A DNA stretch of 64,000 bases from Acidaminococcus fermentans DSM 20731 (GTDB lineage Bacteria > Bacillota > Negativicutes > Acidaminococcales > Acidaminococcaceae), in assembly GCF_000025305.1 (NCBI RefSeq), contig NC_013740.1, positions 62,001 through 126,000 of the forward strand, given 5' to 3'. The position numbers and the translations under genes were made by a program. The first letter of the stretch is position 1. The number at the start of each line of letters is the position of its first letter. A model generated the notes under the pieces. It did not search any database and was not told the origin of the DNA. It worked only from the letters and a program-made list of their open reading frames with translations. Shown piece by piece: positions 43,331-51,140 of the stretch.

Positions 43331-43468
43331 AAAAAGGGGGTGTGAAAAAATGCTTTTTCACACCCCGTCACTAGTCACTAGTCACTAGTCTCTAGTCACT
43401 AGCCGATGGAAGCCAGCTGACGCAAGCGAAATAAAGGCGCTGTGGATGATTTTTTCACAGCGCCTTTT
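43331..43468. terminator. Terminator array between the NhaC gene and zur
   Basis: GGGTGTGAAAAA / TTTTTCACACCC hairpin (about 43338-43365), then tandem GTCACTA GTCACTA GTCACTA GTCTCTA GTCACTA (43368-43402). A GGCGCTGTG..CACAGCGCC hairpin (43437-43463) with TTTTT follows. The last overlaps the end of the minus-strand zur gene. Confidence 0.7.
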
Positions 43469-43898
43469 TCCTGCATTCCTCACAATATCCGTACAGTTCC
43501 AGATAATGGCCCACGATTTCGAAATGGGTCTTTTGGGCCAGATCTTCCTCGAAGCCGTGGAGGGGGCAGCCGTCGATGTTCACTACTTTGTGGCAGCCCA
43601 GGCAAATCAGATGATGGGTATGGCTGAGGGTGTACAGCAGGAACCCGTATTTCCGGCTCTGGGGCAGCAGGACCTTTTCCGTCAGCTTCTTTTCCGTGAA
43701 ACTTTCCAGGATCCGGTACACCGTGGAAAAATTCAGGGTGGCCCCTGTCTGGAGCAGTTTCTGGTAGATTTCATCGGCACTGAGCACTTCCCGCTGGTCC
43801 AGGAGCATGGCCAGCACCTGGAGCCGGGCCTGGGTGCATTTCAGCCCGGCCCGGCGGATCAGCTGCCGGGCATCCAGGGGGGATCCCTTCTTATCCAT
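43455..43898 (-). CDS. zur: Fur-family regulator, probable Zur
   Basis: A 147-residue Fur-family metalloregulator. The N-terminal winged helix includes the recognition segment STVYRILESF (about residues 58-67). The structural zinc site has CLGCH (about 100) and CEEC near the C-terminus. The HTHHLICLGC sensing region is intact. Its ATG overlaps the stop of znuB by 8 bases, so it is the last gene of the znuC-znuB-zur unit. That context makes a zinc sensor more likely than Fur or PerR. Confidence 0.88.
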   Translation of the reverse strand: MDKKGSPLDARQLIRRAGLKCTQARLQVLAMLLDQREVLSADEIYQKLLQTGATLNFSTVYRILESFTEKKLTEKVLLPQSRKYGFLLYTLSHTHHLICLGCHKVVNIDGCPLHGFEEDLAQKTHFEIVGHYLELYGYCEECRKKAL

Positions 43899-44703
43899 GG
43901 CGCACCTGCCGTTTCTGGCTCCGGGACTGGAACAGCAGCACCAGCAGGAGCAGCACGACGGAAACGATGGCGGTGATCCCGCCTGGCGCTGCACCCAGGT
44001 AATAGGAGACCACCAGACCGGCCATTACGTCCAGGAAGCTGAACAGGACCGCCAGGGCCATGGTCTTTTTGAAGCCCTGATGGAGCTGGAGGGCGGTGGC
44101 CACCGGCAGAGCGATCAGGGAACTGATCACCAGGATCCCCACGATCCGGATGGAAACGGAAATGGTGGCGGCCACCAGGATGGAGAACACGTAGTTGATG
44201 GCCCGGGCTTTCACTCCCAGGATCCGGGCGCCGTCTTCGTCAAAGGACAGGAGCACCAGTTGGGGGAACAGGCCGAAAATGGCCAGCAGGGAGATCACGG
44301 TAAGGATGGCCACGGTGGTCACTTCCCCCTGGCTGACGGTGAGGATGCTGCCGAACAGGAAGGAATCCACATTGGCATGGACCAGACCGGAACTGATGAT
44401 GGTAATGGCAATGCCCACGGACAGGGACAGGACAATCACCAGGGTCAGTTCCGCATACCGGCGGAATTTTTCCCGGAGCACTTCAATGAGGAGACCGAAG
44501 AAGGAAGTCAGGCAGAAAGCACTGAGGATGGGGTTGGCATGGAACAGGAGCCCGGTGGCCACCCCGGCCAGGGAGGCGTGGCTCAGGGCATCTCCGATCA
44601 TGGAATAGCGCCGGAGCACCAGGAAGGTACCGATCAGGGGACAGATCAGGGAAATCAGCAGGGATACCGCCAGGGCATTCCGCATAAACGCATACTCAAA
44701 CAT
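43891..44703 (-). CDS. znuB: Zinc ABC transporter permease ZnuB
   Basis: A 270-residue ABC-3 family membrane subunit with 7-8 helices. It opens MFEYAFMRNALAVSLLISLICPLIGTFLVLRR-like; the conserved GDALSHASLAGVATG segment (about residues 36-50) is the ATPase-facing family hallmark. Works with ZnuC and ZnuA to import Zn2+ (or Mn2+). Start 44703 overlaps the znuC stop by 8 bases. Confidence 0.92.
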   Translation of the reverse strand: MFEYAFMRNALAVSLLISLICPLIGTFLVLRRYSMIGDALSHASLAGVATGLLFHANPILSAFCLTSFFGLLIEVLREKFRRYAELTLVIVLSLSVGIAITIISSGLVHANVDSFLFGSILTVSQGEVTTVAILTVISLLAIFGLFPQLVLLSFDEDGARILGVKARAINYVFSILVAATISVSIRIVGILVISSLIALPVATALQLHQGFKKTMALAVLFSFLDVMAGLVVSYYLGAAPGGITAIVSVVLLLLVLLFQSRSQKRQVRHG

Positions 44704-45370
44704 GGGCGCAGTCACCTCCGTTTTCCGCCAGATATTCCCGGATATATTCCTGGGGGGTGCAGAAATGGCCCTGGCCCCGGACCACATGGAAGAAGCTGGA
44801 AGCATTGTGGGCGGCGTACCGGAGATTGTGTTCCACGGTCACCACCGTAATGCCCTGGGTTTCGTTCAGCTGGTGGATCAGGGGATAGAGATCATCCTGG
44901 CTTTTCAGATCCATGCCGGTGGAGGGCTCGTCGAAGATCATCAGATCCGGTTTTCCCAGCAGGGCTTTGGCAATCATCACTTTCTGGTACTGGCCTCCGG
45001 AAAGGGCTCCAATCAGATGGTCCTGGAGGGGTTCGATGTGCATTTTGGCCAGGGCCCGGTCCGTGGCCTCCCGGTCTTTGATCCGGAGGACCTGCCGGGT
45101 GTAGTCCAGCACTTCCCGGACGGTAATGGGGAACTGTTTGTTGACCATGTCCGTGGGCTGGGGCACGTAGGCGGGCCGGCGGAAGGTGGTGGAAATGGTT
45201 CCGCTGCTGGGTGTCAGGAGACCCAGGATCAGCTTCACCAGGGTGCTTTTGCCGCTGCCGTTTTCTCCCACAATGGCCACATAGTCCCCGTCATGGATTT
45301 CCATGGACAGGTCATGGAGAAGGTAAGGTCCCTGCTCATAGGCAAAGGACAGATGAGAAATCTGAAGCAT
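44696..45370 (-). CDS. znuC: Zinc ABC transporter ATP-binding protein ZnuC
   Basis: A 224-residue ATPase. Walker A GENGSGKST (about residues 35-43), ABC signature LSGGQ (about 130), Walker B LMIFDEPS and the switch His (VTVEHNL, about 188) are all present. First gene of the minus-strand znuC-znuB-zur operon. ATG 45370 is preceded by AAGAGGT. Divergent from znuA across a two-operator region. Confidence 0.93.
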   Translation of the reverse strand: MLQISHLSFAYEQGPYLLHDLSMEIHDGDYVAIVGENGSGKSTLVKLILGLLTPSSGTISTTFRRPAYVPQPTDMVNKQFPITVREVLDYTRQVLRIKDREATDRALAKMHIEPLQDHLIGALSGGQYQKVMIAKALLGKPDLMIFDEPSTGMDLKSQDDLYPLIHQLNETQGITVVTVEHNLRYAAHNASSFFHVVRGQGHFCTPQEYIREYLAENGGDCAHV

Positions 45371-45403
45371 GGTATTGACCTCTTTCTGGTATGATGGCGC
45401 AAA

Positions 45404-45481
45404 TGCAAATGATTTGCGTTTGTTGACGGACGGTACTCTATATGATATGATATCTTTCGCGAAAATGCAAATGGTTTGCAT
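45404..45481. promoter_or_regulatory. Two palindromic operators and divergent promoters, znuC / znuA
   Basis: TGCAAATGATTTGCG (45404-45418) and ATGCAAATGGTTTGCAT (45465-45481) are near-identical palindromes with half-site GCAAAT, centres 62 bases apart. Between them lies a plus-strand promoter TTGACG (45423-45428), 17 bases, TATGAT (45446-45451). A minus-strand -35-like TTTGCA inside the second palindrome lies 18 bases before TATCAT. These are the expected Zur sites. Confidence 0.7.
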
Positions 45482-45704
45482 GTAGGCAGTTGCCTGGCAA
45501 CAGCCTGTCAACGGTCAATTGTCAATGGCCGATGGGTAAATTTGCAGGCATAATTTTTGAATGTGTGAGTCGGATCCGCAGGGGCGGCAGGCCCGGCCGC
45601 CTGGCATTGTGCCGGTGGTCTGTGGATCCTGCGGGCTCCCCGGCGCGGAGCTCCTGCAGGTCCGTACCCATTACAGGGATAGGCAAAAGGAAAGGAATGG
45701 ATCG
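45482..45704 (+). repeat. znuA leader containing element B and a second repeat
   Basis: The roughly 240-base untranslated leader of znuA. It holds GTTGCCTGGCAAC, the mini-repeat GTCAACGGTCAATTGTCAATGG (45508-45529) and an element B core GGTAAATTTGCAGGCATAATTTTTGAATGTG. A GC-rich GGGGCGGCAGGCCCGGCC block follows. Apparently a dispersed repeat has landed between promoter and gene. Confidence 0.5.
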
Positions 45705-46607
45705 ATGAAACGGATTGTATTGTTGCTGTTGGCGGGGCTTTTGACTCTTTTTGCCGGGTGCGGCGGGAAAAAGGCCCCGGCCAAAACGGCGGAAGGCAGG
45801 CTGCCGGTGGTGGCCAGCTTTTATGCCATGAAGGAAATCACGGAAGCCATTGGGGGGGACAAGGTGGCGGTGACCACCCTGATCCCGGAAGGGACGGAAC
45901 CCCATGAATTCCAGCCCACCACCCGGAGCATGAAGGATCTGAGCCGGGCCCGGGTACTGGTGCTCCAGGGGCTGGGAATGGAACCCTGGGCGGAAGATAT
46001 GGTGAAAGCGGCGGAAAACCCCGGTCTGGTCCAGGTTACGGCAGCCCGGGATGTGGCCCCCATTGCCAATGAAGACGCGGAGGAGATCCGGGAACACGGC
46101 CAGTATGATCCCCATGCCTGGCTGAGCCCCTCCTGTGCCCAGGTGGAAGCAGCGGCCATTGTCCGGGGGCTGTCCCAGGCGGATCCGGACAATGCGGCCT
46201 ATTACCAGGCCAATGGGGAAAAATTCATCGGACGGCTGCGGCAGCTGGAAAAAACCTACAAAGAAAAATTCCAGTCCGTTCCCCGGAAAGATTTCGTCAC
46301 CGGTCATGCGGCCTTTGCCTACCTGTGCCGGGATTTCGGGCTGGAACAGAACAGCGTGGAAGGGGTCTTTGCCTCCGGGGAACCCAATGCCCGGCAGCTG
46401 GCCAAACTGGTGGAATACTGCCGGGAACACCAGGTGAACACCATCTTCACGGAAGCAGCGGTCAGCCCCAAGACCAGCCAGGCCCTGGCCAGGGAAGTGG
46501 GGGCGAAAGTGGTGCCCATCCATACCCTGGAAGGGGGAGAAGGGGAAGGGAACTATCTGCAGCAGATGGAAGAGAACCTGGCGCGGATTTATGAGAGTTT
46601 GAAGTAG
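45705..46607 (+). CDS. znuA: Zinc ABC transporter substrate-binding lipoprotein ZnuA
   Basis: A 300-residue cluster A-I binding protein. The lipoprotein signal LLLLLAGLLTLFAGC puts the lipidated Cys near residue 17. Metal-binding His residues lie in GTEPHEFQPT (about 65), DPHAWLSP (about 135) and TGHAAFAYL (about 200). The acidic ligand sits near TEAAVSPKTS (about 250). The His-rich loop typical of some ZnuA proteins is short here, so Mn2+ is not excluded. AAAAGGAAAGG precedes the ATG at 45705. Divergent from its ABC partner genes. Confidence 0.92.
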   Translation: MKRIVLLLLAGLLTLFAGCGGKKAPAKTAEGRLPVVASFYAMKEITEAIGGDKVAVTTLIPEGTEPHEFQPTTRSMKDLSRARVLVLQGLGMEPWAEDMVKAAENPGLVQVTAARDVAPIANEDAEEIREHGQYDPHAWLSPSCAQVEAAAIVRGLSQADPDNAAYYQANGEKFIGRLRQLEKTYKEKFQSVPRKDFVTGHAAFAYLCRDFGLEQNSVEGVFASGEPNARQLAKLVEYCREHQVNTIFTEAAVSPKTSQALAREVGAKVVPIHTLEGGEGEGNYLQQMEENLARIYESLK

Positions 46608-46631
46608 GGGGGGCTGCAGGAGCAACGCCCT

Positions 46632-46850
46632 GTCAACGGTCAGCGGCCAAAGGAGGCCAGCAAAGCTGGTTTTGAACAACGGTAACGGTTGTATCAATCG
46701 TGTTCCCGTAGGGGCGGCAGGCCCGGCCGCCCGCCAAATAACCGTTTGTCCGTATGTTATGCGGGGCGCCGGACCTGCGCTCCCTACGGTTTATGCGGTT
46801 CAAAATCAATTTGCAAAAATTGATTTCCAACGGCTGATGACTGCTGACAA
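46632..46850 (+). repeat. Intergenic element A, copy 3 (full)
   Basis: Starts with mini-repeats GTCAACGGTCAGCGGCC and CAAAGGAGGCCAGCAAAGCTGG (about 46648). TTGAACAACGGTAACGGTT and CCCGTAGGGGCGGCAGGCCCGGCCGCC follow. A GCGGGGCGCCGGACCTGCGC..CCCTACGG right arm leads to the AT palindrome AAATCAATTTGCAAAAATTGATTT (about 46802-46826). It closely matches copy 4 at 49455 over about 200 bases. Confidence 0.65.
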
Positions 46851-46885: not shown

Positions 46886-46940
46886 CTTCACATTTTCTTC
46901 ATATTTTTCCAACAGTTTATGCATGAGGAACCGGTATAAT
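46886..46940 (+). promoter_or_regulatory. Direct-repeat operator and promoter of the small secreted protein gene
   Basis: CTTCACATTTT (46886-46896) and CTTCATATTTT (46897-46907) are abutting 11-base direct repeats, the pattern bound by OmpR-type response regulators. TATAAT lies at 46935-46940, 27 bases after the repeats, with no good -35. That suggests activator dependence. The same arrangement precedes the gene at 49770. Confidence 0.65.
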
Positions 46941-46999
46941 AAAGACAAAGAAAAGAACAAACCAAACCAACCTGGACAAGGAAGAAAGGATGATCCATC

Positions 47000-47284
47000 A
47001 TGACGGCAAAATTCAAGACTCTGGCAGTGGCAGCGGCGTTCTTTGCGGCAGGCAGCATGGCGGGGCCTCGGTTGTTTTCTGTGACCCCGGCTCATGCAGC
47101 AGAAGCGGCGGGGGGAAATCAGTCGGTTGTACAAGCTTTGGACAACCAGGTTGGATGTCCTTATTACAACCAGAATGGACGGCACTGGAGAGGTGGACGA
47201 CGGGGCCGGGGAGGTTGCTGGAACCAGGGCCAACAGCCCCCCTGCTGGGGCGACGACGGCCAGGGACAGGGGCAGCAGAGCTGA
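47000..47284 (+). CDS. Small secreted Gly/Gln/Arg-rich protein
   Basis: A 94-residue protein with a clear signal peptide (basic MTAKFK, hydrophobic AVAAAFFAAGS core, probable cleavage after AHA near residue 33). The mature part of about 60 residues is rich in Gly, Gln, Arg and Trp. Its three Cys occur in VGCPYY, GGCWNQ and PPCW. No known family is recognised. It lies just upstream of a two-component system and carries the putative regulator site. Metal or envelope-stress function is a guess. Confidence 0.7.
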   Translation: MTAKFKTLAVAAAFFAAGSMAGPRLFSVTPAHAAEAAGGNQSVVQALDNQVGCPYYNQNGRHWRGGRRGRGGCWNQGQQPPCWGDDGQGQGQQS

Positions 47285-47520
47285 AAAAGCGGGGTGTGAA
47301 AGAATTCACACTCCCGGTCGCAGGCCGCGAGTCGCAGGTCGCGGGACTGGACGTTCAAGTCGTTTGTCTTTCTTCTATATTTCTATACGATGATGAGACC
47401 CAATCGGATGAAACCTGTATAGCCAGTTTTTCGGGCTGCACCAGCAAGCCCGCGACTCACGGCTCGAGACCCGTGACCTGAAAAGGGGGTGTTGCACAGC
47501 AACACCCCCTTTTTATATAA
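47285..47520. repeat. Element C, copy 2, and terminator
   Basis: GC-rich degenerate units (GGTCGCAGGCCGCGAGTCGCAGGTCGCGGG, about 47316-47345) face a mirror set (CCCGCGACTCACGGCTCGAGACCCGTGACC, about 47449-47478) across an AT-richer centre. Then comes the intrinsic terminator GGGGGTGTTGC / GCAACACCCCC (47485-47509) followed by TTTTTATA. Confidence 0.6.
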
Positions 47521-47542
47521 TGTTCCCAGCAAGGAGGCGCTT

Positions 47543-48259
47543 ATGGACAACTACTCTGTATTGCTGGTGGACGATGATCCCAAGCTGCTGGATCTTCTGG
47601 TCAACTACTTCACAAAGGAACAATTTACGGTGCTGGCTGCCCGGGACGGGGAGGAAGCCCTGCGGATCTTCCGGAAGGAGCAGCCCCAGTTGCTGGTGCT
47701 GGACCTGATGCTGCCCAAAATCGACGGCCGGGACGTGTGCCGGACCATCCGGCAGGACAGTACCGTCCCCATTATCATGCTCACCGCCCGGGATGCGGAA
47801 TTCGACCGGCTCATGGGACTGGAACTGGGGGCGGATGATTATGTGACCAAGCCTTTCAGCATGCGGGAACTGGTGGCCCGGGTCCGGGCCCTGCTCCGGC
47901 GGACCTACGGGGCTTACGGGCAGCAGAAGGAAGGAGCCCCGGAAACGGTGATCCGGGCCGGGACTCTGGAACTGGATCTGGACCGGCATATCCTCCGGCG
48001 GAAGGAAGAGGGGGACGGCTGGAAGCCCATTGAACTGACCCCCATTGAATTCAATCTGCTGGAAGTCCTTATGAAAAGCCCTGGTCATGTGTACAACCGG
48101 CTCCAATTAATGGAAAACAGCCATGGATTTGCCTTTGACGGGTATGAACGGACCATTGATGCCCATATCCGGAACCTGCGGCGGAAAATCGAGCCGGATA
48201 CGAAAAATCCCCGGTACATCCTGACGGTGTACGGCATCGGCTACAAATTCGGAGGATGA
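47543..48259 (+). CDS. OmpR-family response regulator
   Basis: A 238-residue two-component regulator. The receiver domain has acidic DDD at residues 10-12, phosphoacceptor Asp54 in LVLDLMLP and the conserved KPF lysine near 103. A winged-helix DNA-binding domain (about 140-238) ends with RNLRRKIEPD..YGIGYKF. AAGGAGG sets the ATG at 47543. It is 3 bases from the kinase gene. The direct repeats at 46886 and 49672 are its likely binding sites. Confidence 0.93.
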   Translation: MDNYSVLLVDDDPKLLDLLVNYFTKEQFTVLAARDGEEALRIFRKEQPQLLVLDLMLPKIDGRDVCRTIRQDSTVPIIMLTARDAEFDRLMGLELGADDYVTKPFSMRELVARVRALLRRTYGAYGQQKEGAPETVIRAGTLELDLDRHILRRKEEGDGWKPIELTPIEFNLLEVLMKSPGHVYNRLQLMENSHGFAFDGYERTIDAHIRNLRRKIEPDTKNPRYILTVYGIGYKFGG

Positions 48260-48262
48260 GTC

Positions 48263-49429
48263 ATGCATTTTCACAGCGTGCGGAACAAGATGATGCTCAG
48301 CACTTTTCTGCTGATCCTGGTCTGCGCCCTGATCGTCATTGCCATCTGCAACCAGCAGATGGAGACCCACTTTTTCCAGTATCTCCAGGATCCCTCCGCC
48401 CTGGCCGGGCAGCAGGGGGGAGAAAACTGCGGTCAGGGACTGGGCATGGGAAGGGGCATGATGGGCGGCGGCATGGGTATGGGAGGCATGCGCCGCCGGA
48501 TGATGATGGGAGCGGCGGAACGGACTTTTGTGGAATCCTACCATAAATCCCTGTGGTGGATCGGGTTCCTGTTCGCCGGAATCGGGCTGGTAGTGAGTTA
48601 CTTCCTGTCCGGGAACATCACCCGGCCCCTGCGGCAGCTCTCCCAGGCGGCGGAAAAAATTCGCCAGGGGGAACTGAAGCAGGAGGTGCCGGTGGAAACC
48701 GGGGATGAAGTGGGCCAGCTGGCTTCCGTGTTCAACCAGATGTCCGCGGAACTGGCCGCCAACGAAAGCAACCGACAGGAGTTGCTGGCCAATATCGCCC
48801 ACGAGCTGAAAACGCCTCTGGCGGTGCTCCAGGGCCATCTGGAAAGCATGCTGGACGGGGTGGAACAGCCGGAGCCGGACAAACTGTTTTCCATGCAGGA
48901 GGAAGTCATGCGGCTGACCCGGCTGGTGGGGGATCTGCGGGACCTGTCCCTGGCCCAGGTCCATCAGCTGGAACTCCATCTCCAGCCGGTGGATCTGGGG
49001 GAAAAGACGGAACGGTCGGCAGAAATGCTGGAACCCCTGCTGGAGGAGAAAAAACTCCATTTTAAGAAGGAACTGGCTCCGGATCTGCCGGTACGGCAGC
49101 TGGATCCGGACCGGATGAACCAGATCCTGTACAACCTGATCACCAACGCCATCCGGTATACCACCCCGGGGACGGCCATCCTGCTGAAAACGGAAGGGGC
49201 AGGGGAAAAGGTGCGGCTGACCATTGCCGATGAAGGGCCGGGGATCCCGCCGGAAGATCTGCCCCATGTGTTCGAACAGTTCTATCGGGGGGAGAAATCC
49301 CGGAACCGGGCCTCCGGGGGCAGCGGCATCGGGCTGTCCCTGGCCAAAAGCTTCGTGGAAGCACAGGGCGGGCATATAGAAGCCAGGAACCGGCCCCAGG
49401 GCGGGGCGGAGTTTGTGGTGGAGGTATAG
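48263..49429 (+). CDS. Sensor histidine kinase with Met-rich sensing loop
   Basis: A 388-residue membrane kinase with TM1 about 13-29 and an extracytoplasmic region 30-97. TM2 is about 98-116, followed by a HAMP domain (about 117-170). The phosphorylated His180 is in NIAHELKTPL, and an ATPase domain has NLITNAIRY, DEGPGIP and GGSGIGLSL. The sensing loop is short and unusual, with nine Met between residues 62 and 82, mixed with Gly and Arg. Methionine clusters often bind Cu(I) or Ag(I), so a soft-metal signal is plausible (inference). Confidence 0.92.
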   Translation: MHFHSVRNKMMLSTFLLILVCALIVIAICNQQMETHFFQYLQDPSALAGQQGGENCGQGLGMGRGMMGGGMGMGGMRRRMMMGAAERTFVESYHKSLWWIGFLFAGIGLVVSYFLSGNITRPLRQLSQAAEKIRQGELKQEVPVETGDEVGQLASVFNQMSAELAANESNRQELLANIAHELKTPLAVLQGHLESMLDGVEQPEPDKLFSMQEEVMRLTRLVGDLRDLSLAQVHQLELHLQPVDLGEKTERSAEMLEPLLEEKKLHFKKELAPDLPVRQLDPDRMNQILYNLITNAIRYTTPGTAILLKTEGAGEKVRLTIADEGPGIPPEDLPHVFEQFYRGEKSRNRASGGSGIGLSLAKSFVEAQGGHIEARNRPQGGAEFVVEV

Positions 49430-49454
49430 GGGGCTGTTGCATGAGCAACAGCCC

Positions 49455-49667
49455 CGTCAACTGTCAACTGTCAACGGTCGACGGCCAAAGGAGGCCAGCA
49501 AAGCTGGCGTTGAACAACGGTAGCCGTTATATAAATCGTTCCTGTAGGGGCGACAGGCCCGGTCGCCCGCCAAATCAGCAGTTGACCACGTGTTTTGCGG
49601 GGCGCCGGGCCTGCGCCCCCTACGGTTTATGCTGATTGAAAATAAATTTGTAAAATTGATTTTCAAC
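49455..49667 (+). repeat. Intergenic element A, copy 4 (full)
   Basis: Mini-repeats GTCAACTGTCAACTGTCAAC, then CAAAGGAGGCCAGCAAAGCTGG, GTTGAACAACGGTAGCCGTT and a CCTGTAGGGGCGACAGGCCCGGTCGCC left arm. The right arm is GCGGGGCGCCGGGCCTGCGC..CCCCTACGG. It ends with AAATTTGTAAAATTGATTTTC. It mirrors copy 3 on the other side of the two-component genes. Confidence 0.65.
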
Positions 49668-49671
49668 ACCC

Positions 49672-49726
49672 CTTCATATTTTCTTCACATTTCCTTCCCA
49701 CCATCTGCATATTGTATTCCTATAAT
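49672..49726 (+). promoter_or_regulatory. Direct-repeat operator and promoter of the membrane protein gene
   Basis: CTTCATATTTT (49672-49682) and CTTCACATTTC (49683-49693), the same 11-base tandem as at 46886. TATAAT is at 49721-49726, again 27 bases after the repeats and without a good -35. This is strong evidence that one regulator controls both flanking genes. Confidence 0.65.
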
Positions 49727-49769
49727 ACAAGTATGAAATGAAACAAACCCAATGGAGGAGCGATGTGCA

Positions 49770-50273
49770 ATGGTTATGACGAATTATATGGATCTTTTGG
49801 CGGCCAACCAGCCCTGGAACCTGATCCTCTTTATGGTGATCCCGGTGGTGCTGGCGGAATCCCTGGTGGCTACAGAATTCTATACCACTTATTACAACGG
49901 CAAGGCGGCTGGCTGGAAGGCCTGGAACCACCGGCTGGGAATTGCCGCCGGGGTGTATTTTGCCCTGGTGGTGCTGTATCTCCTGGTGAACGTGGTGCCC
50001 GGGATCCACTGGAAGGGCTGGGCGGATCAGCTGGCCATCGTGGCCTATCTGCTGGGGATTGTTCCCCTGGGAGCCATTGCCCTGATGGAAATGGGGGTCA
50101 CCGGGAAGCACCTGACGGAACAGCAGCGGACCCTGCGGCATTTCGGCCTTTTGATCGGATTCCTGGTGGTCAGCCATGTGGCCATGGTGTTCGGCATGGT
50201 GGATCCCACCATCACCGGCTGGCAGCCCATGCCGGCGCAGATGCACCAGATGGATCATATGGGACATATGTAA
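49770..50273 (+). CDS. Small four-helix membrane protein with His/Met-rich tail
   Basis: A 167-residue integral membrane protein with four hydrophobic segments (about residues 13-33, 53-73, 85-105 and 120-143). The C-terminal tail is MPAQMHQMDHMGHM, a Met/His cluster resembling copper- or silver-binding motifs. I do not recognise a characterised family. Start 49770 is placed 9 bases after GGAGGAG; the ATG at 49763 is out of frame. Likely a target of the neighbouring two-component system and perhaps involved in metal handling (inference). Confidence 0.7.
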   Translation: MVMTNYMDLLAANQPWNLILFMVIPVVLAESLVATEFYTTYYNGKAAGWKAWNHRLGIAAGVYFALVVLYLLVNVVPGIHWKGWADQLAIVAYLLGIVPLGAIALMEMGVTGKHLTEQQRTLRHFGLLIGFLVVSHVAMVFGMVDPTITGWQPMPAQMHQMDHMGHM

Positions 50274-50280
50274 GAAAAGA

Positions 50281-50316
50281 GGGGGTGCTGCACAGGACGT
50301 GCAGCACCCTCATTTT
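50281..50316. terminator. Convergent terminator
   Basis: GGGTGCTGCAC / GTGCAGCACCC hairpin (50283-50309) between the membrane protein gene and the minus-strand DJ-1-like gene, followed by CATTTTCATTTC. Confidence 0.75.
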
Positions 50317-51140
50317 CATTTCTTCAATGCTTTTTCCAGTGCTTTGGCCAGTTCCAGATCGGAGGCCGGATTCTGTCCGGTGATCAGTTCCCGGTCTTTG
50401 ACCACATGGCTCTGGTTTATGCCCTGGACCTGGATCTTTCCACCGGCCAGCTGGAGAGCCTGTTCCAGATGGAAGGGCATTTCCGTTCCTTTGGCCACTT
50501 CACCGGGCCATTCTTCCGCATCAGAAAGAGCGGTCATGGCATAGCCCTCGTAGATCCAGCCCTTGCCCAGGGCAAGGACACTCCTTACGTCCCGATCCAC
50601 CAGAGCTTTCCGGTAGCCGGCGGGATCCGGCAGGGCTGCCAGGGCAGCAGCCGGCCCGTGGCAGATCAAGGCAGTGGGCTTCTCTTTGGCGTGGAAATCC
50701 TTCAGGATGGTCCCCAGGTCCTGATTTTCCATCAGGCTGCCCATGGGGGCATGGCCACCGGGAATGAACAGGGCATCATACCGGTCCAGTCCGCCCTGGA
50801 TGGCCTGCTGGAAGGAAATGGGCTTCAGGCCGTTGACGAAGGCTTCCGCCCGGGCCCGTTCAGTTTCTTTGTCCTGGAAAAATTTTTTGTCATTGGATCC
50901 CTGGTCCATAATGGGATCCTTCCCTTCCGGGGTGGCCAGGACGATTTCCCAGCCTTTTTGGGCCAGGTATTCTGTGGGGACGGCCAGTTCGTTCAGGAAG
51001 AATCCGGTGGACATCCGGGTGTGATTGGCCAGCTCCAGGGTTCCCTCACTGGAGGCAATCACCAGGATCCGGCCTTTGACCGGGGCTGCCTGGGCGGACA
51101 GTGCACCCAGGGGCAGAGCCAGCATGGCAGTCAGTATCAT
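50316..51140 (-). CDS. Exported DJ-1/PfpI-like protein, leader apparently frameshifted
   Basis: A 274-residue DJ-1/PfpI superfamily protein of the Hsp31/glyoxalase III-like group. The nucleophile elbow LICHGPAA is near residue 160 and the PGGHAPMGSL motif near 127. Most of a signal peptide is present (ILTAMLALPLGALSAQA). ATG 51140 has no ribosome site. An AGGAG-preceded ATG at 51157 begins MKRF but is out of frame by one base at a run of five T. Six T would give a complete signal peptide. A sequencing error or real frameshift is possible. Confidence 0.78.
   Translation of the reverse strand: MILTAMLALPLGALSAQAAPVKGRILVIASSEGTLELANHTRMSTGFFLNELAVPTEYLAQKGWEIVLATPEGKDPIMDQGSNDKKFFQDKETERARAEAFVNGLKPISFQQAIQGGLDRYDALFIPGGHAPMGSLMENQDLGTILKDFHAKEKPTALICHGPAAALAALPDPAGYRKALVDRDVRSVLALGKGWIYEGYAMTALSDAEEWPGEVAKGTEMPFHLEQALQLAGGKIQVQGINQSHVVKDRELITGQNPASDLELAKALEKALKK

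Follow-up and report, generated by a model that had tools for sequence, protein, structure and literature searches.

The closest described systems to the one considered here are the CusRS two-component system of E. coli with CusCFBA and the CopMRS-CopBAC system of Synechocystis, with PhoB and the pho box as the parallel for promoter architecture. In the E. coli sensor CusS, Ag(I) is bound by H42, F43 and H176 beside the membrane, together with a Met/His loop (PMC10100754). In the pump CusA three methionines, M573, M623 and M672, form the Cu(I)/Ag(I) triad; the corresponding residues of the C. crescentus pump, CzrA, are Q, A and E (PMC3637150). A model of PhoB contacts is given in PMC3348028. 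Here we describe a locus at 46886-50273 of a 64,000-nucleotide stretch of Acidaminococcus fermentans DSM 20731 (contig NC_013740.1, positions 62,001 to 126,000), called the window below and the source of all coordinates. Judged from its sequence and that of its relatives, this locus likely encodes a CusRS/CopMRS-like, Cu(I)/Ag(I)-type envelope-stress two-component system with two effectors in Acidaminococcus, neither of which is a pump. The gene order is operator, secreted protein, regulator, kinase, second operator and DUF6803 membrane protein, with the following features:

46887..46930, + strand: operator of the secreted-protein gene, four in-phase 11-bp units, TTCACATTTTC TTCATATTTTT CCAACAGTTTA TGCATGAGGAA
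46935..46940, + strand: -10 TATAAT, 9 bp past the TGCATG of unit 4, without a -35
47000..47284, + strand: small secreted Cys/Trp/Gly-rich protein, 94 amino acids, proposed effector 1
47493..47521, + strand: sigma-70-like promoter of the regulator-kinase operon, TGCACA-17-TATAAT, without operator (sigma-70 scan)
47543..48259, + strand: OmpR/PhoB-type response regulator, Response_reg and Trans_reg_C (Pfam)
48263..49429, + strand: sensor histidine kinase, HAMP, HisKA and HATPase_c, with a short extracytoplasmic loop (Pfam)
48446..48508, + strand: Met-rich loop, kinase residues 62-82
49673..49716, + strand: operator of the DUF6803 gene, units TTCATATTTTC TTCACATTTCC TTCCCACCATC TGCATATTGTA
49721..49726, + strand: -10 TATAAT, 9 bp past the TGCATA of unit 4, without a -35
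49770..50273, + strand: DUF6803 four-helix membrane protein, PF20617, proposed effector 2
50241..50270, + strand: C-terminal MHQMDHMGHM tail of the DUF6803 protein
50281..50311, + strand: terminator-like hairpin 3' of DUF6803 (the regional count of such sites is at the level of shuffles)

Both effector genes are preceded by the same direct repeats, the first pair at 46887-46908 and the second at 49673-49694, and in both cases 26 bases lie between the pair and TATAAT. Each operator extends beyond the pair: units 1 and 2 are strong, unit 3 is weak, and unit 4 (TGCATG at 46920, TGCATA at 49706) lies 33 bp past the first unit and 9 bp before the -10. A sigma-70 scan found no -35/-10 promoter at either operator. 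An earlier note on this DNA had described twin 11-base repeats at identical spacing before both genes, each followed by a -10 without a -35. The spacing and the promoter type were as described and the repeats are the sole strong copies in the genome; each operator is longer than the note had it, with four in-phase units. No match to the repeats arose in 100 shuffles of the window. Across the whole genome (2,329,769 bp, or 2.33 Mb, in a single contig), the only matches with fewer than three mismatches are these two operators, two further sites appear at three mismatches, and the reversed pattern has no match.

The operator is conserved well beyond this genome. The DUF6803 loci compared here come from Negativicutes and from further groups; they are related and partly redundant (some genomes are in both collections), so the counts are dependent. 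Among them, 56 of the 97 regions upstream of DUF6803 score at least 14 of 17 consensus positions. That score is reached by 13 of 1209 regions that lie upstream of the remaining genes in these loci, and by 9 of 1940 shuffled sequences. Matches occur in Acidaminococcus, Selenomonas, Megasphaera, Sporomusa, Pelosinus, Propionispora and Clostridium. When the best match to TATAAT is taken as the -10, its distance from unit 2 (n=49) is 15 in 23 cases, 26 in four and 37 in 18, placing 45 of the 49 on an 11-bp ladder. Such a ladder fits what a head-to-tail OmpR/PhoB-type activator would need beside the polymerase. Searching 380 Negativicutes genomes for the exact pattern gave 34 sites against one for its reverse, and the exact site is present in 20 of 75 genomes with DUF6803 versus 11 of 305 without it (Fisher p 1e-8, uncorrected for kinship). 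A chance origin of the twin operators is ruled out by the shuffles, the genome-wide scan, the reversed control and the conservation in other loci. DUF6803 genes of Haemophilus, Necropsobacter, Campylobacter concisus, Methanomicrobiales and Actinobacillus (L163, L164, L175, L180, L197, L208) have no good match to the operator.

The genes that stand behind the operator in relatives are what point to copper or silver, and from their company we infer the metal. Among genomes that lack DUF6803, G482 and G507 have the site before TolC-CusB-CusA, and G507 also has it before a regulator-kinase pair 53% and 40% identical to that of the window. In G506 it stands before a regulator gene that is followed by Cus genes, and in G488 before a Met/Cys/His-rich secreted protein. 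The site also precedes a multicopper oxidase. The 60 bases past one site in G492, without DUF6803, match those preceding the multicopper oxidase of G491, which has DUF6803; Cu-oxidase domains were confirmed. Further sites in genomes with DUF6803 precede TolC-CusB-CusA (L129, L133, L135, L137) or small secreted proteins, and the site is found before TolC-CusB-CusA operons of several genera. Against the CusA/CzcA family model (NCBIfam TIGR00914, cut-off 701.45) the pump of L129 reaches 1141.8 bits, and in its alignment to E. coli CusA the methionines M573, M623 and M672 are retained. By motif, the whole triad is present in L133, L137 and L238 and at least two of its residues in L135, where the third motif was not found by pattern. 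In other words, all five pumps checked have two of the methionines and four of the five have the third. CopA ATPases adjoin DUF6803 in L078 and L082. Other P-type ATPases were left out of the copper evidence, namely those of L086 and L224 (HMA-type, without a profile test) and of L223 (Kdp-like by eye).

The predicted regulon is larger in Sporomusaceae-type genomes than in Acidaminococcus, and the "self-contained" system of the earlier note holds for Acidaminococcus only. Its suggestion of a copper or silver envelope regulon gains support from other genomes, where the operator stands before CusA-type pumps, Met/His-rich secreted proteins and a multicopper oxidase.

The regulator belongs to the OmpR/PhoB type, with Pfam scores of 110.6 bits for the receiver and 88.2 bits for the winged-helix Trans_reg_C domain, and DUF6803, regulator and kinase genes are adjacent in 19 of 40 loci. 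Kinase residues 62-82 read MGRGMMGGGMGMGGMRRRMMM, and translation confirms the nine Met in 21 residues that the earlier note had singled out. The part of the sensor that is conserved, however, is not this loop; it consists of M33, the Met with which helix 1 ends, and H94, a His just before helix 2. The pattern used to search for the sensor required both residues, so the case for their conservation rests mainly on alignable orthologues. No second copy of the sensor region was found by search in its own genome. Matches in G272, G482, G491, G500 and G507 include kinases within or near operator or Cus clusters. By analogy, the kinase may be a shortened CusS-like sensor.

The flanking genes encode, as first described, a small secreted Cys/Trp/Gly-rich protein and a four-helix membrane protein ending in MHQMDHMGHM. 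The first has a signal-peptide-like N-terminus followed by a GCPYYNQNGRHWRGGRRGRGGCWNQGQQPPCWGDDG mature part. It matches nothing in Pfam or NCBIfam, and a test for DUF305 was negative. Behind the operator, small secreted Cys/His/Met/Trp-rich proteins occur in several unrelated sequence forms: a CWG type in Acidaminococcus, a CHG/Tyr type in L078, a Met-rich type in L086, and short peptides with HSGHH or HSSHH tails in L129, L131, L135 and L173. In L078 and L086 the small gene bearing the operator lies directly 5' of DUF6803. The DUF6803 protein of A. provencensis (L059) carries a fused CWG-type tail; this single-genome case is backed by its reading frame and by CWG motifs, with a weak pairwise match (E 1e-4, low complexity). 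By analogy with CopM or CusF, the secreted protein probably sequesters metal in the periplasm or outside.

The membrane protein is a full-length member of PF20617 (213.2 bits over residues 7-163, against a gathering cut-off of 27); "uncharacterised", the term first applied to both effectors, therefore remains apt for function, while this protein does belong to a named family. We prefer its start at 49770, as proposed originally, over that of a longer open reading frame from 49752, because the Pfam match begins at residue 7 of the longer frame and relatives start at MxMT(N/H)YM. The protein of an A. fermentans contig (L146) is 95% identical. Within the family M7, M22, H136, M139 and M143 are invariant and H124 nearly so, and at least 424 public genome stretches carry a member, with hosts ranging from Clostridium through Campylobacter to methanogens. 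AlphaFold2 predicts a four-helix bundle (pLDDT 80, pTM 0.68). Foldseek returned no PDB structure under E 0.001, and the VIA matches are generic four-helix bundles, designed proteins among them; no function was therefore read from the fold. Neither a PDB sequence relative of DUF6803 nor, in a literature search, a paper naming the family was found, and these searches turned up no recorded function. The conserved residues and the gene company suggest that DUF6803 is probably a membrane protein that handles metal.

What the sequences themselves show is the gene order, the operators with their conservation and 11-bp register, and the genes that accompany them; binding by the regulator and the handling of metal by the effectors are inferred. 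We hypothesize that the system works as follows. The kinase would monitor the periplasm through Met/His ligands, namely M33, H94 and the variable Met-rich loop between them, and would phosphorylate the OmpR-type regulator. The regulator would then bind head to tail on the 11-bp direct repeats TTCAYAnnTTCTTCAYAnTT, where the promoter-proximal unit, 9 bp before the -10, would stand in for the absent -35 contact in a PhoB-like class II activation. This would turn on the two effectors in Acidaminococcus, the secreted Cys/Trp/His protein and DUF6803. The former probably binds metal in the periplasm or outside. DUF6803, with its invariant Met/His in the helices and its Met/His-rich tail, probably accepts or buffers metal at the inner membrane, working with the secreted protein. 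More tentatively, the secreted protein may capture metal and hand it over to DUF6803, whose Met/His lining would receive it in the inner membrane. The two would then make up a route for Cu(I)/Ag(I) that needs no pump, has not been described so far and is distributed across Bacteria and some Archaea.

Several observations weigh against a dedicated copper or silver system. Operator sites also stand before a chromate transporter (G509, without DUF6803) and, in some genomes, before LemA/TPM-like genes, and those in four genomes of the related genus g178 and in G510 have no recognisable downstream gene; the signal may thus be wider than copper. The window genome has a copper ATPase above cut-off and no CusA/CzcA-type pump above cut-off, so the copper link rests on relatives. 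The kinase reaches 177.8 bits against the 292.55 required by the heavy metal sensor kinase model (cztS/silS/copS, TIGR01386), and the regulator 156.4 against 279.2 for the heavy metal response regulator (TIGR01387). The kinase loop varies widely, from 4 to 14 Met plus His, and the secreted protein's own sequence type was found only within the genus Acidaminococcus.

Two side observations concern these sites. In L243 (5590-5631) two operators precede a chromate transporter, which suggests that the regulon may include other metal or oxyanion genes. The g178 sites are exact operators (L234 6166, L235 2039, L236 2234, L237 5597) among partly conserved bases.

The most serious competitor is a general envelope-stress system resembling BaeSR or CpxAR, which would sense membrane or protein-folding stress and include the metal genes as part of its output. 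BaeS models are indeed the best profile matches of the kinase, and SHOCT and RseC-like genes, as well as the LemA/TPM genes, follow the site in some genomes. Yet all BaeS and CpxA models score far below their cut-offs (BaeS NF012163, 267 bits against 500), the sites whose genes can be named mostly precede CusCBA with the Cu/Ag triad, multicopper oxidase or Met/His-rich proteins, and Met/His ligands are kept in the sensor. We consider a general stress system unlikely. Membership of the pair in the curated Cus/Cop or BaeS families was rejected on the same cut-offs.

Highly improbable, in our view, is a system for zinc or another divalent metal tied to Zur-ZnuABC-type genes. A Fur-family regulator, znuB, znuC and a gene for a ZnuA-type binding protein do lie just upstream (43455-46607) and adjoin the module in other Acidaminococcus genomes too, but outside the genus the znu genes are away from it, and the linked pumps keep the CusA triad where CzrA has Q, A and E (PMC3637150). 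Finally, copies of an interspersed repeat (46630-46831 and 49430-49665) precede both genes, and the idea that the common upstream sequence is their by-product and no operator is already refuted, with next to no probability left to it, by 11-bp repeats that fall outside the copies, by 53 family matches (the other copies without operator) against only two operators in the genome, and by an operator kept at the same place in other genera.

This intergenic repeat family measures about 200-240 bp, its pieces are 73-93% identical, and it occurs at about 40 more places in the genome. Between the secreted-protein and regulator genes, 47285-47500 is part of another repeat with several genome copies, 71-76% identical. 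Downstream, 50316-51140 (-) encodes a DJ-1/PfpI (HchA-like) protein with a signal-peptide-like N-terminus, unusual in that family.

A literature search found no paper on copper regulation by such a system in Negativicutes. If the Cu(I)/Ag(I) envelope system is correct, a copper-type operator is now searchable by sequence in this class. DUF6803, a widespread family, would gain its first testable role and a link to small secreted metal-ligand proteins that change fast. The system further predicts a way for an anaerobic gut bacterium to deal with envelope copper although it lacks a Cus pump.

The locus can be compared with the described systems one by one. Like CopMRS-CopBAC of Synechocystis (PMC4335983, PMC4182526), it places a small secreted or periplasmic effector beside a regulator-kinase pair, and Sporomusaceae-type relatives share with that system a resistance-nodulation-division (RND) pump as the other target. 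CopM, however, is a DUF305 protein whereas the window's small protein lacks DUF305, DUF6803 is outside the published system as it has been described, and in Acidaminococcus the operator stands on no RND pump. With E. coli CusRS-CusCFBA the relatives of this regulon share CusCBA-like pumps with the CusA methionine triad, and the window kinase shares with CusS membrane-proximal ligands at equivalent places plus a Met/His loop. The CusS loop, in contrast, has about 150 residues against about 60 in the window sensor, the window kinase and regulator score under the heavy-metal two-component cut-offs, and the window effectors include no pump. With PhoB and the pho box the locus has in common an OmpR/PhoB-type regulator, tandem direct repeats in 11-bp register and a proximal unit near the -35 position, whereas its operator is built of TTCAYA units, with upstream units at 11-bp steps, and serves another regulon.

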